Positions 296 through 3,628 of a stretch of 6,746 nucleotides of DNA are shown in pieces. The translations under genes and the position numbers were made by a program. The stretch is from Muribaculaceae bacterium (lineage in GTDB: Bacteria > Bacteroidota > Bacteroidia > Bacteroidales > Muribaculaceae): positions 1-6,746 of the forward strand of contig JAIDTS010000030.1 of the NCBI GenBank assembly GCA_029060585.1. The letters are read 5' to 3'. The notes under the pieces are model-generated. The model made no database searches, was not told the DNA's origin, and saw nothing but the letters and a program-made list of their open reading frames with translations. The first letter of the stretch is position 1. Each line of letters opens with the position of its first letter.

Positions 296-667
296 TTAAA
301 TTTTACTATCGTCTGTCTTTGCGAGCATCAAGGCCACTTCTTCCGGTGATATTCCAAGAATCCTCATCTCCTCTTTTAGTTGCGGAACGGTATTCTTAAA
401 AAACTCCCGTTTCCTTTCATTTCTGATAATCTCGACTCCATTCCGTGCCAGCAGGAATCCAAGCCCCCTACGCGATTCTATCACATGAAGATTCTGAAGT
501 TCATCAAAAGCCTTTAGCACCGTTCGGTTGTTGACTCCGAGCTCACAGGTCAGCTCCCTTACGGAAGGTATCGTTTCTCCCGCCCGCCAGGCACCGGTCA
601 GAATACAGTTGAACGCATAGTCCAGTATCTGTCGATAGATAGGTTTATTGTCATTAAACTCCATCAT
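296..667 (-). CDS. GntR-family transcriptional regulator, short YtrA type
   Basis: This 123-residue DNA-binding protein has an N-terminal winged helix-turn-helix of the GntR family: residues 9-28 are the leading helix (PIYRQILDYA), 33-39 the conserved IPSVREL, 44-60 the recognition region (GVNNRTVLKAFDELQ) and 64-73 the wing (ESRRGLGFLL). Only about 50 residues follow, too short for the ligand-binding domains of FadR or HutC types, which fits the YtrA subfamily. YtrA regulators usually control a neighbouring ABC transporter, and here the ATPase and membrane genes lie directly upstream in the same operon. The ATG at 665-667 is 4 bases after the membrane gene's stop, and a second ATG follows at once at 662-664, so either could be used. 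The palindrome at 2304-2327 is its likely target. The effector is unknown. Confidence 0.9.
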   Translation of the reverse strand: MMEFNDNKPIYRQILDYAFNCILTGAWRAGETIPSVRELTCELGVNNRTVLKAFDELQNLHVIESRRGLGFLLARNGVEIIRNERKREFFKNTVPQLKEEMRILGISPEEVALMLAKTDDSKI

Positions 668-671
668 TGCA

Positions 672-1448
672 CTAAAGATTACTTCTATATAGCGACCTGT
701 AGCTCAAGAAGATCAGCAAGAAGATTAATCCTACGTTGATTGCCAATGCAAAAAATGAAAAGTACAGGTGATCATTCAAGGCGCTGCTCACCATTTCAGT
801 TATTTCCGTTTCGCTGGCTGCGCTCCCCTGGGAGGCTGCTTCTCTATATCCGGCTACTATAGCTTCCTTTACTCCATAAAAGGTATTGATGGTAGAAAGA
901 AAAATCGATACCCCTATCGAAATCAGATAAGCTTTCACGAGTCTATTGCGTTTTGCAGCAATCACAAAGTAAAAGCATGTCAACATGGCCGCTATGGTAG
1001 AAAGATATGTCGACCATTCAAATACCAGCGGTACACTTACACTTTGAATTGTTGAGCCATCATTCATTTCCGAAGGATATAGTTCCGGAGATATTTTTTC
1101 AGCCATCCAAGGAAAAAGATAACAGGCCAAACCGATTACTATAAGAAGATAGCTCAGATAAAACATTAATTTCTCAAGCGCACTTGCTGGAATAAGCCTG
1201 TCTACTACTCTGGTATCCCCTCCTTTAGTGAATACAATCGGTGCCCATATGAACATAAACAGCAGGATTGTTCTGCATGGACTATATATTCCCATACGTA
1301 TTGTCTGCGAAGGAATCAGAAGGTATACGAGCGAAGTTACAATAGAAAAGAGAAAATATATTATCGTCTGTTTCTTGATCCACGGAGCATTGTATTGATA
1401 TAACATTGCCACTCTCTGCCACGCAAAGGATGCATTCTGTGTTTTCAT
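672..1448 (-). CDS. ABC transporter membrane subunit, six-helix hydrophobic protein
   Basis: This 258-residue integral membrane protein has about six predicted transmembrane segments, near residues 27-47, 58-74, 93-114, 145-165, 170-190 and 227-249. A polar loop between 115 and 142 and another between 195 and 226 separate them. The stretch after the second helix (VVDRLIPASALEKLMFYLSY) resembles the linker commonly seen in ABC-2-like permeases next to YtrB-type ATPases. Its ATG overlaps the ATPase stop by one base (TAATG at 1450-1446), which indicates translational coupling. It presumably pairs with that ATPase to form an exporter or an envelope-stress-type transporter. The substrate cannot be read from the sequence. 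Confidence is good for membrane subunit and low for any specific substrate. Confidence 0.85.
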   Translation of the reverse strand: MKTQNASFAWQRVAMLYQYNAPWIKKQTIIYFLFSIVTSLVYLLIPSQTIRMGIYSPCRTILLFMFIWAPIVFTKGGDTRVVDRLIPASALEKLMFYLSYLLIVIGLACYLFPWMAEKISPELYPSEMNDGSTIQSVSVPLVFEWSTYLSTIAAMLTCFYFVIAAKRNRLVKAYLISIGVSIFLSTINTFYGVKEAIVAGYREAASQGSAASETEITEMVSSALNDHLYFSFFALAINVGLIFLLIFLSYRSLYRSNL

Positions 1449-2281
1449 TATTTTTGCAGTTGATGTATTATACGTTCTGATTTATCCGAGTGTAAGGCCA
1501 TATAGAGGGCTTTCCAATCGACTCTGGTTTCATCATGTCCATCAGCGGGATAAATATTGATGAATCTGCCTGCGGCATTCTCCGAATAGAGCGATTCAGG
1601 ATCGCTTGAATTCGAATACTCAAACGTTAGCCTCTCCGCAACTTCCTCTTCAGTACCCGCAAAGACAAGCCTTGACCTGTGCATTATCATCGCGCCGTCA
1701 AAAAGCCTGTCAAGATCACCCACGGTGTGTGTGGACACCACTATTGTCTGGTCATCGCGTATATCTGCGGCAATCAGCCTTCGTAATGTCTCGCGCCCTT
1801 CTATGTCAAGTGCGTTCGTCGGTTCGTCCATAAGTAAAACCTTCACGCCCAAAGCGAGGACGTAGGCCAGCTGGGCCTTCTTGCGGTTTCCCAATGAGAG
1901 GGACTCCATCGGCTCATTCCCGGTCTGTCCGAACGCCTTCAGGTTCTCCTCAAACATGTCTTCGGAAAAATCGGGATAAAAACGTGAATGAAGATCCTTG
2001 AAGATCCTAATGGTCTTGCCGGGGAAACACATGTTTTCTTCCAGCAGGAATACTTTTCCCATCTCCGCGGGATTGGTTGTAGCTGAAGGATATGAGTCAA
2101 TCTTGCTTGTACCCGTCTGCGGACGTGAAAGGCCTGCTATGACATGAAGCAACGTCGTCTTGCCGGCTCCGTTCTCACCGGCAAGCAGATACAGTCCTGA
2201 GCCGATCCTGCCCGAAACATCCGACAAAGCCGGTGTTTTAGCCTTCCTGTAAGTAAATGTCACGTTCTTTAGTTCTATCAT
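1448..2281 (-). CDS. ABC transporter ATP-binding protein (YtrB-like)
   Basis: This 277-residue ATPase powers the transporter whose membrane subunit follows immediately. From the chosen start it shows Walker A (GENGAGKTT, residues 35-43), a degenerate signature (LSLGNRKKAQ, 128-137, where LSGGQ is usual), Walker B with the catalytic glutamate (VLLMDEPTNALD, 148-159; E153) and the switch histidine H185 (STHT). The Q-loop region reads VFLLEEN (77-83), with Glu where Gln is typical. After about residue 215 comes a C-terminal extension of some 60 residues with no motif I recognise. The frame is open up to 2326, but the start at 2281 (MIELKNVTFTYR) is preferred: the family begins there, and the upstream ATGs lie at or in front of the predicted transcription start around 2323. 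First gene of the operon. Confidence 0.93.
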   Translation of the reverse strand: MIELKNVTFTYRKAKTPALSDVSGRIGSGLYLLAGENGAGKTTLLHVIAGLSRPQTGTSKIDSYPSATTNPAEMGKVFLLEENMCFPGKTIRIFKDLHSRFYPDFSEDMFEENLKAFGQTGNEPMESLSLGNRKKAQLAYVLALGVKVLLMDEPTNALDIEGRETLRRLIAADIRDDQTIVVSTHTVGDLDRLFDGAMIMHRSRLVFAGTEEEVAERLTFEYSNSSDPESLYSENAAGRFINIYPADGHDETRVDWKALYMALHSDKSERIIHQLQK

Positions 2282-2303
2282 ATGCTCTAAGTATTGTCGT
2301 TTA

Positions 2304-2327
2304 AGTGTTGCACTCATGTACAACACT
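2304..2327. promoter_or_regulatory. Palindromic operator, probable GntR/YtrA binding site
   Basis: Arms AGTGTTG (2304-2310) and CAACACT (2321-2327) are perfectly complementary around a 10-base centre, and two further symmetric pairs (2312-2313 with 2318-2319) lie within it. The TGT...ACA outer pattern fits the two-fold sites used by GntR-family dimers. It begins one base downstream of the -7 box of the ABC operon promoter and covers the expected transcription start, where a bound repressor would block initiation. The only regulator in the operon is the YtrA-type protein at 296-667, so autoregulation is inferred. Confidence 0.65.
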
Positions 2328-2328
2328 G

Positions 2329-2359
2329 CAAAGGTAGTTATTTTTTTCGGAACAACAAT
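2329..2359 (-). promoter_or_regulatory. Promoter of the ABC transporter/GntR operon
   Basis: Read leftward, TACCTTTG at 2336-2329 is an exact match to the Bacteroidota -7 consensus TAnnTTTG, and ATTG at 2359-2356 matches three of four bases of the -33 TTTG with a 19-base spacer. Transcription should start near 2322-2324, giving a leader of about 40 bases before the ATPase start. The palindrome at 2304-2327 overlaps this start. Confidence 0.7.
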
Positions 2360-2387
2360 AAATTTTCTAAAAAAAATTCAGCTATAA

Positions 2388-2419
2388 TTTGGAAGTCTCA
2401 ACCTTATGCATTATCTTTG
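2388..2419 (+). promoter_or_regulatory. Strong Bacteroidota-type promoter driving the unassigned RNA region
   Basis: TTTG (2388-2391), a 20-base spacer and TATCTTTG (2412-2419) form a full match to the primary sigma factor consensus TTTG-N19-21-TAnnTTTG. The DNA before it is very AT-rich (2337-2387). Transcription should start near 2424-2426. It is back to back with the operon promoter at 2329-2359, with the two start points about 100 bases apart, and no annotated protein gene begins within 400 bases downstream. Confidence 0.75.
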
Positions 2420-2424
2420 CGTTA

Positions 2425-2710
2425 TAAAAGCAGAGCTGAGGAGAGCCGAGGCTCACAAAAAGAGGATTACCCATCACCACATCAGAGTAATTTGGGAAAC
2501 TCATCAAACTTTAATGAAATACCGAGACCATCTGCCGGATGCGATGGCGGGCCCCCCACTTTCGGGTGGCGTCTTCCCTTCGGGGGAGCACAGGCGGATT
2601 ACAAAGCGCCGGTGGAACTCAAATCCTGTCTATCGGAGTTTCATCACAAAACCTTTGGTGTGGTCCTTATAAAGGAGGCATAAGGCGATTTGCCTTATGC
2701 CTCCTTATTT
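2425..2710 (+). ncRNA. Unassigned structured RNA: non-coding RNA gene or long leader of the nitroreductase
   Basis: About 285 bases lie between a consensus promoter and a terminator-like stem-loop with no convincing protein frame. The predicted transcript folds well by eye. CTTCCC (2573-2578) pairs with GGGGAG (2583-2588) under a TTCG loop. CCACT (2556-2560) pairs with GGTGG (2565-2569), also under TTCG. ATCTGCC (2530-2536) pairs with GGCGGAT (2593-2599) and encloses both. GGTGGAACTC (2611-2620) pairs over 10 bp with GAGTTTCATC (2636-2645), including two G-U pairs. GAGC/GCTC (2443-2446, 2451-2454) and GGATTAC/GTAATTT (2464-2470, 2487-2493) may form near the 5' end. It does not match RNase P RNA, tmRNA, SRP RNA or the cobalamin, TPP or FMN riboswitches as I know them. 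It may be an independent small RNA or an attenuating leader for the gene at 2826. Start and end are predicted, not measured. Confidence 0.6.
2672..2710 (+). terminator. Stem-loop terminator ending the unassigned RNA
   Basis: AAGGAGGCATAAGGC (2672-2686) and GCCTTATGCCTCCTT (2692-2706) form a perfect 15-bp stem with a 5-base loop, followed rightward by ATTTAG, a modest T-rich tail. It lies 115 bases before the nitroreductase start, so it either ends an independent RNA or attenuates transcription into that gene. A smaller hairpin, TCCTT/AAGGA (2664-2668, 2672-2676), would compete with the base of the stem. Confidence 0.7.
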
Positions 2711-2720
2711 AGTAAACACT

Positions 2721-2792
2721 CCCCTAAGACCTTAAAGACTTTAAGGACTTTAAGGACCTTAAACACCTTAAGGACCTTAAACACCTTAACCC
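2721..2792. repeat. 9-bp tandem repeat array, eight units
   Basis: From 2730 to 2792 seven consecutive 9-base units follow one another without a gap: CCTTAAAGA, CTTTAAGGA, CTTTAAGGA, CCTTAAACA, CCTTAAGGA, CCTTAAACA, CCTTAACCC. A more degenerate unit (CCCCTAAGA) precedes them at 2721. The shared core is YTTAA, and the CCTTAAGG version is a self-complementary octamer. The array lies between the terminator-like stem-loop and the nitroreductase start, and no protein frame uses it. It could vary in copy number by slippage. A regulatory role is possible but not shown. Confidence 0.85.
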
Positions 2793-2825
2793 TCTAAAAA
2801 ATCATAAACTTCAAACACCCAAAAT

Positions 2826-3578
2826 ATGAAAGACGTAAGACAGACCCTGCTTGACAGGGTATCCATCCGCCGCTACGAGAGAGAGGCGATTCCGCAGGAG
2901 ACAATGGACTTCATCTACGACGCTGTCCGAAACACTCCGACAAGCTACAATGGCCAGCAATATTCTGTAATCGATATAGACGATCAGGAACTCAAGGAAA
3001 AACTCTATGAACTCACAGGCCAAAAGCAGCTCAAGACCTGCAACCGCCTGCTCATCTTCTGCTCAGACTACAACAAGATGACACTTCTCGCCGAAAAGAA
3101 AGGCGTCACCATGCCCCCCTTCACCGACACAATGGACGGCACGATCATCGGCATCATCGACGCCTCGCTCGCTATGATGAGCGCTGTGGTGGCCGCTGAA
3201 GCCTGTGGGCTCGGATGCAACTGCGTAGGATATCTCCGCACCGTAGACCCTAAGGCTGTAGCTGAGCTTCTCAAGCTCCCCAAGGGTGTGTTTGTGGTTT
3301 GCGGCCTTGCCCTCGGCATTCCCCGCGAGCATCCCGACCTCAAGCCCAAGCAGCAGCGCGACCTCGTATTTATGAAGAACTGCTACTCGCAGGATCCGGA
3401 GAAGCTCACCGAGGAACTCGTGGAATACGATAAGGTTGTCACAGAATACAACCAACACCGAGCCGGCGGAACGTCCGACAATGATTGGTGTGCCCACATC
3501 GTCAACTACTATGATCACGCGATGGAATACAACATCCTCCAGTATCTGAAAGACCAGGGCTACGACATCAAAAAATAA
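2826..3578 (+). CDS. Nitroreductase-family flavin oxidoreductase
   Basis: This 250-residue cytoplasmic FMN enzyme should reduce nitro compounds, quinones or free flavin with NAD(P)H. The N-terminus has the flavin phosphate-binding SIRRYE (residues 13-18), then PTSYNGQQ (38-45), which corresponds to the family's PSxxNxQPW loop. GLGCNCVGYLR (128-138) and VCGLALGIP (158-166) are the two conserved glycine-rich segments that hold the isoalloxazine ring. The long C-terminal part (about 170-250) resembles the NfsA/FRP branch more than small NfsB-like enzymes. The physiological substrate is unknown. The ATG follows A-rich DNA (ACCCAAAAT) without a Shine-Dalgarno sequence. I see no clear promoter between 2711 and 2825, so the gene may depend on read-through from the promoter at 2388-2419. 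It converges on ffh and shares a terminator with it. Confidence 0.9.
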   Translation: MKDVRQTLLDRVSIRRYEREAIPQETMDFIYDAVRNTPTSYNGQQYSVIDIDDQELKEKLYELTGQKQLKTCNRLLIFCSDYNKMTLLAEKKGVTMPPFTDTMDGTIIGIIDASLAMMSAVVAAEACGLGCNCVGYLRTVDPKAVAELLKLPKGVFVVCGLALGIPREHPDLKPKQQRDLVFMKNCYSQDPEKLTEELVEYDKVVTEYNQHRAGGTSDNDWCAHIVNYYDHAMEYNILQYLKDQGYDIKK

Positions 3579-3583
3579 AAAGA

Positions 3584-3617
3584 GGAGCCCCCTTCCAATT
3601 TCTTGGAAGGGGGCTCC
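3584..3617. terminator. Intrinsic terminator between nitroreductase and ffh
   Basis: GGAGCCCCCTTCCAA (3584-3598) and TTGGAAGGGGGCTCC (3603-3617) form a 15-bp GC-rich stem around a TTTC loop. Read leftward, it is followed by CTCTTTTTATTTTTT, an excellent T-tract for ending ffh transcripts; that tract overlaps the last codons and stop of the nitroreductase gene. Read rightward the tail is only CTTATTCG, so it acts more weakly for the nitroreductase. Confidence 0.92.
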
Positions 3618-3628
3618 CTTATTCGTGC

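Follow-up and report, generated by a model that had tools for sequence, protein, structure and literature searches.

What is encoded in the interval between an ABC ATPase gene and a nitroreductase gene in a Muribaculaceae genome (Bacteroidales)? The window, the whole 6.7-kb stretch analysed here (6,746 nucleotides), carries, as judged by Pfam domains, a GntR-type regulator, a protein without a Pfam match, an ABC ATPase, Ffh, PanD and PanC, and its nitroreductase is up to 96% identical to relatives encoded in Muribaculaceae MAGs. An earlier note had placed between the ABC ATPase and the nitroreductase a structured RNA gene with its own promoter and terminator, had found no RNA class for it, and had suggested either a new RNA or a leader controlling the nitroreductase. 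Our results bear out a real stand-alone RNA gene at those coordinates, and they identify it. We regard it as very probable that the element is the 6S RNA gene of this bacterium, of the family Bacteroidales-1, and that its product acts as a 6S RNA on RNA polymerase. The gene itself is already known and classified, an ordinary, conserved, stand-alone RNA gene.

Elsewhere in the window, the GntR-type regulator, a 258-aa protein with no Pfam or NCBIfam match and the ABC ATPase likely form an operon (296-2326, minus strand). Near the left end, inspection by eye found a 15-base perfect inverted repeat, TTAGACCCCATCTCA / TGAGATGGGGTCTAA (136-150 / 189-203), which is either a terminator or what remains of a small mobile element. 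About seven tandem copies of a 9-base unit of the AAGACCTTA type lie at 2726-2789, between the RNA terminator and the nitroreductase. A long GC-rich hairpin at 3577-3625, between the convergent nitroreductase and ffh genes, is probably a two-way terminator.

The identity of the RNA comes from a cmscan search against Rfam, in which RF01693 (Bacteroidales-1) matches the plus strand over its full length (model positions 1-179 of 179) with 93.6 bits, the cut-off being 60, and an E-value of 5.5e-15. The claim that the RNA is new or fits no known class is thus wrong. Neither the general 6S family RF00013 nor the family RF01685 (6S-Flavo) matches the window at E-values up to 5. The other ten Rfam matches in the window (E up to 5) were rejected as they fall below their gathering scores; five of them lie on or across the hairpin at about 3577-3625 behind the nitroreductase, which attracts such weak matches on both strands. 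Our own full-rod covariance model, R1, gives 166.4 bits on the window, which was among the sequences used to build it. Rfam describes RF01693 with the words "6S-Bacteroidales RNA suggested". Ryan et al. 2020 report a 6S RNA and two classes of product RNA in Bacteroides thetaiotaomicron and, in the same text, credit Wehner et al. 2014 with the prediction of the Bacteroides 6S RNA (PMC7366714). From the wording of Rfam and the distribution of the family, we infer that the B. thetaiotaomicron 6S RNA is the RF01693 RNA. The features of the locus are listed in Table 1.

Table 1. Coordinates of the RNA locus and the downstream gene (window numbering)
Feature	Position	Strand	Remarks
Promoter of the Bacteroidetes primary sigma factor	2388-2419	+	-33 element TTTG 2388-2391, 20-nt spacer, -7 box TATCTTTG 2412-2419
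Precursor 5' leader	2422-2474	+	From the putative start site up to the RF01693 match
Leader hairpin, AGAG loop 2442-2445	2433-2454	+	GAGCU-GA-GG-AGAG-CC-GA-GGCUC; leader fold z -2.38
Bacteroidales-1 / 6S-type RNA, presumed mature body, 197 nt	2475-2671	+	RF01693
Closing stem P1 (10 bp), 5' strand	2477-2486	+	Pairs with 2654-2663
Helix P2 (7 bp), 5' strand GAAACTC	2496-2502	+	Pairs with 2636-2642
Central bubble, 5' strand (21 nt)	2503-2523	+	No pairs here in the RNAalifold consensus (95 sequences)
Apical arm	2524-2620	+	GAG/CUC pairs 2524-2526 with 2618-2620, then an interrupted stem and a variable terminal loop
Central bubble, 3' strand (15 nt)	2621-2635	+	RNAalifold consensus
Helix P2, 3' strand GAGTTTC	2636-2642	+	Pairs with 2496-2502
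Closing stem P1, 3' strand	2654-2663	+	Pairs with 2477-2486
Intrinsic-terminator-like hairpin, 15 bp, then ATTTAG	2672-2706	+	-28 kcal/mol, z -8.68
Nitroreductase gene	2826-3578		

The signals that delimit the unit are those that the earlier note had read by eye. Its full-consensus promoter, TTTG-N20-TATCTTTG, is the sole match in the window to TTTGN{19,21}TANNTTTG, where 0.02 matches are expected by chance, and it fits the primary-sigma consensus for Bacteroidetes given in PMC7366714. TAnnTTTG is found within 130 nt upstream of the RNA in 87 of 98 homologous loci, the window included (88 of 99 before a same-genome duplicate was removed), as against 6.6% in shuffles, and in 64 of these 87 the -33 position is occupied by TTTG or TTGG. 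Before the promoter and length counts we had removed L057 and L059-L064 as same-genome duplicates, and L035 and L040 for their identical cores. From the position of the -7 box, transcription would start at 2422-2425. The region from 2425 to 2710 is indeed foldable (MFE -109.7 kcal/mol, z -5.92), better than all 200 dinucleotide shuffles, and the core from 2475 to 2671 alone has a fold z of -2.72 against such shuffles. The proposed stem-loop terminator is present as 15 bp without interruption; the tail directly 3' of the stem is T-poor, and a simple terminator scan of 2200-3000 with a criterion of 5 T in 8 listed no terminator, this hairpin included. Our own terminator detector fired in 39% of shuffles, and its count of 67 of 99 loci was therefore set aside.

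Two open reading frames, of 88 aa (2406-2672) and 57 aa (2539-2712), raise the possibility that the region is a small protein gene. The longer frame starts inside the promoter, ahead of any start site, and matches nothing in Pfam. Ten of 12 relatives have this start as well, but in eight of them only 16-37 aa can be read from it; the full 88 aa survive in L005 alone among these ten, and L002 reads 103 aa. An internal frame varies in length and sequence, and the RNA lengths of 100 loci (the window included, L042 and L089 being one genome) are spread evenly modulo 3, with 37, 32 and 31 loci. The absence of a Pfam match and the broken frame in relatives led us to reject a protein gene, to which we assign a next to negligible probability, in agreement with the earlier view that the unit holds no credible protein.

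The other suggestion made for this locus, that the RNA acts in cis on the nitroreductase gene as a leader or riboswitch, has the gene order on its side. In 44 of the 52 nitroreductase loci from Muribaculaceae the RNA directly precedes the gene in the same orientation; L008 and L009 in this count are two loci of a single contig, and in L008-L010 just the 3' part of the RNA is present. Against it, the terminator-like hairpin stands between RNA and gene, and the gene is missing from the fetched flank in 59 of the 60 loci collected with the RNA; that flank was up to 1.5 kb long and, in 4 of the 60, held less than 500 bases downstream. The sole exception, L089, comes from the same genome as L042, which was found through the gene. 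Conversely, the RNA is absent upstream of six nitroreductase genes for which over 3.3 kb of upstream sequence was available (L017, L023, L048-L051). Either the gene order around the RNA varies within the family or, in the case of L048-L051, these genes are paralogues; the nitroreductases of L048-L051 are 58-62% identical and may be so, and the genome of L049 (G008) has the RNA on another contig. Because only 1 of 60 RNA-found loci has the gene in the fetched flank, and that one duplicates a gene-found genome, we conclude that the RNA is not a nitroreductase leader. On the terminator and on synteny that reading was rejected, its probability being very small, and the adjacency of RNA and nitroreductase is local gene order.

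A 6S-type RNA gene is consistent with how the family is distributed. Exactly one RF01693 match, always over the cut-off, was found in each of 138 of 149 Muribaculaceae genomes; the 11 genomes without a match perhaps reflect MAG incompleteness. All 8 genomes reached through named loci have one match each, and among 14 control genomes only Bacteroides ihuae has one. In a sample of 149 genomes from the order, RF01693 matched 36 at E <= 1e-3, 27 of them over the cut-off, while R1 matched 46, once each: 34 of the 36 and 12 more, with two weak ones lost (G260, G286). The family and order surveys, as searches of more than 40 genomes, were run with stricter filters that miss weak matches. In the same 149 order genomes, RF01685 matched 17, none over its cut-off, and RF00013 gave two matches over its cut-off (L134 in G206 and L135 in G278), neither in a genome that RF01693 matched in the order survey. 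Either foreign contigs in the MAGs or a separate 6S lineage would explain these two.

The 6S assignment also has structural support. We aligned 95 homologues without structure information (alignment A1) and folded the alignment with RNAalifold. The 95 come from 100 loci, of which L089 (the genome of L042) and L118 and L121-L123 (cut off or below the cut-off) were dropped; L008-L010, whose RNA is cut by a contig end, had been dropped when the loci were collected. The consensus is a 6S-like rod consisting of a closing stem, an internal loop, a 7-bp helix, a central bubble and an apical arm, and a rod with a central bubble between closing and apical arms is the 6S architecture as set out in PMC8876501 and PMC8414754. 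The earlier note had named a lack of covariation among homologues as a ground for refutation; covariation is in fact strong. With one RNAalifold pair within the 3' bubble strand omitted (columns 180/191), 34 pairs were counted, of which 95.4% of cells are paired as against 85.1% in shuffles, 24 are changed on both sides as against 15.0, and the covariation score is 0.330 as against 0.148; none of 500 shuffles reaches any of these values, and slid versions of the structure score at most 0.081. These figures are to be read with the structure derived from the same alignment and with shuffles that ignore relatedness.

In P1 all 10 pairs show compensatory changes on both sides, with 96.2% of cells paired, and in the apical arm (helices 3-5) the main apical helix, helix 4, has both-side changes in 11 of 12 pairs. 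In P2 six of the seven pairs are invariant in the 95 sequences; the seventh is G-C in 82, with both-side changes in 5, a one-side change in 2 and no pairing in 6. Since these six P2 pairs and the three GAG/CUC pairs never vary, covariation says little for either element. Folded alone, the window sequence has the closing stem and P2 in its minimum free energy structure, but a different fold of the apical arm. The structure line of RF01693 in Rfam pairs only the apical part and leaves P2 and the 5' and 3' ends unpaired, whereas our data support the closing stem and P2 in addition.

A rod of this shape might also belong to a trans-acting structured small RNA, one that works on mRNAs or on another protein and is merely 6S-shaped. 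RF00013 does not match the window, polymerase binding is deduced from the likeness to 6S RNA, and Weinberg et al. 2010, in their Table 1 (PMC2864571), class Bacteroidales-1 as a clear RNA with a '?' for both cis-regulation and switch; all of this would fit such an RNA. Yet the rod has a two-sided central bubble and a covarying closing stem, there is a single match per genome, a bridge leads to 6S-Flavo (see below), and product RNAs have been reported for the Bacteroides 6S RNA (PMC7366714). We therefore consider a trans-acting RNA of this kind improbable. The 6S reading accounts for a stand-alone, single-copy gene of about 200 nt (197 matched) that occurs across a clade with no fixed neighbour and folds into a rod with closing stem, central bubble and apical arm.

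If the RNA is a 6S RNA, its life may be pictured as follows. Transcription from the primary-sigma promoter would yield a transcript of about 280 nt, starting near 2422-2425 and presumably ending at the terminator-like hairpin. This precursor would probably be trimmed to the body of about 197 nt, so that the mature RNA most likely begins near 2475 and not at the start site. The rod most likely mimics an open promoter and binds the primary-sigma RNA polymerase; its most likely function, by analogy with 6S RNA, is to sequester that polymerase and so to restrain it at nutrient shortage. When nucleotides return, the polymerase would copy the 5' strand of the bubble, which is most likely the template for product-RNA initiation, into a short product RNA, and this synthesis would open the downstream duplex P2 and release the complex.

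In Bacillus subtilis 6S RNA the bubble has a release helix, and a similar alternative helix can be drawn here between the distal 5' bubble and the 3' strand of P2. It is conserved, but its covariation score of 0.060 does not exceed the 0.065 of shuffles and thus lends it no support. When the 5' strand of P2 is masked, its mean probability rises from 0.27 to 0.55, and at least half of it is present in the minimum free energy fold of 59 of the 95 sequences, compared with 31 when unmasked and with 25, 10 and 31 under control masks. The window's own masked fold has a 3' hairpin in its place. A release helix of the B. subtilis type is not common to all 6S RNAs; in the RF01693 RNA we offer it as possible, as no more than a hypothesis.

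The 5' leader of the presumed precursor may hold a second structure. Leader length among family members ranges from about 10 to about 100 nt. We surveyed 170 loci, same-genome duplicates (including L089 and L177) having been removed, of which 156 have a -7 box. Of the 156 leaders, 52 have a hexaloop (A/G)AG(A/C/G)GA closed by a stem of 3 bp or more, with 28 different stems among them, compared with 0.4% in shuffles. Under a wider AG(A/C)G definition the hairpin is found in 68 of 103 leaders of at least 35 nt and in 6 of 53 shorter ones, the controls being 1.2% in shuffles, 4 of 156 reversed leaders and 2 of 170 downstream stretches. Before L089 and L177 were removed, the counts were 54 of 158 for the hexaloop, and 70 of 105 and 6 of 53 for the wider definition. 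The stem of the window's own hairpin is interrupted and fails the detector. When 84 distinct sequences are anchored on the loop, the four pairs nearest the loop are present in 59, 66, 53 and 51 of them, as against 39, 37, 36 and 31 in shuffles, and none of 1000 shuffles reaches the observed values; the size of the effect is uncertain, as the shuffles ignore relatedness. Pairs five to seven are not significant in the same 84 sequences.

Short leaders, under 35 nt, make up 19 of the 24 in the order sample once the two genomes known to belong to the family are set aside. A genome-wide search for the hairpin behind a promoter, with a strict pattern and a large minimum gap, matched in 4 of 149 genomes, always at the RNA. 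A looser pattern matched in 100 of 149, mostly noise, and a backward control also matched in many; by eye, among the matches listed, the rows starting with TTTG[CT]GTT[AG]TA adjoin the RNA, just upstream of it. The parts of the literature searched hold no description of a leader hairpin on a 6S RNA, which is weak evidence of novelty, and the hairpin, with its AGAG-type loop and covarying stem, is possibly new.

A bridge from Bacteroidales-1 to 6S-Flavo appears in the order sample, where in two genomes (G195 and G233) RF01693 and RF01685, the latter below its cut-off, hit one and the same site. Of the 17 loci found with RF01685, 10 were fetched, and R1 matches every one of these on the same strand, with E-values from 4.4e-11 to 0.0099, which are rough, the two weakest matches being marginal; it matched neither of the two RF00013 loci. 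We argue from this that Bacteroidales-1 and 6S-Flavo are one family, with a common closing stem that the RF01693 structure omits. Taken together, the full proposal is that the Muribaculaceae 6S precursor has a dedicated maturation or control hairpin in its leader and that Bacteroidales-1 and 6S-Flavo form one family with a closing stem. We hold this double claim tentatively and put its chances slightly below even. If it is true, the leader hairpin would be a cleavage signal, or the site of a protein that decides when 6S RNA becomes active. The hairpin offers a testable handle on 6S precursor maturation in Muribaculaceae. The pair counts improve the family structure in Rfam and join RF01693 to 6S-Flavo, an aid to annotation, and a gene left unassigned by eye turns out to be the 6S-type RNA, likely a global transcription brake, of a major group of gut bacteria.

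Among known systems, the closest is Bacteroidales-1 (RF01693), which by its full-length match of 93.6 bits and its presence in 138 of 149 family genomes is the same RNA; the Muribaculaceae precursor differs from it in often having a longer leader with a hairpin. The RNA is unlike 6S-Flavo (RF01685) in that this model fails to match the window at E-values up to 5, and the same is true of canonical 6S RNA (RF00013), represented by E. coli 6S RNA and B. subtilis 6S-1. With canonical 6S RNA, as defined in PMC8876501, it nevertheless shares a length of about 200 nt and a rod built from a closing stem, a central bubble and an apical arm.
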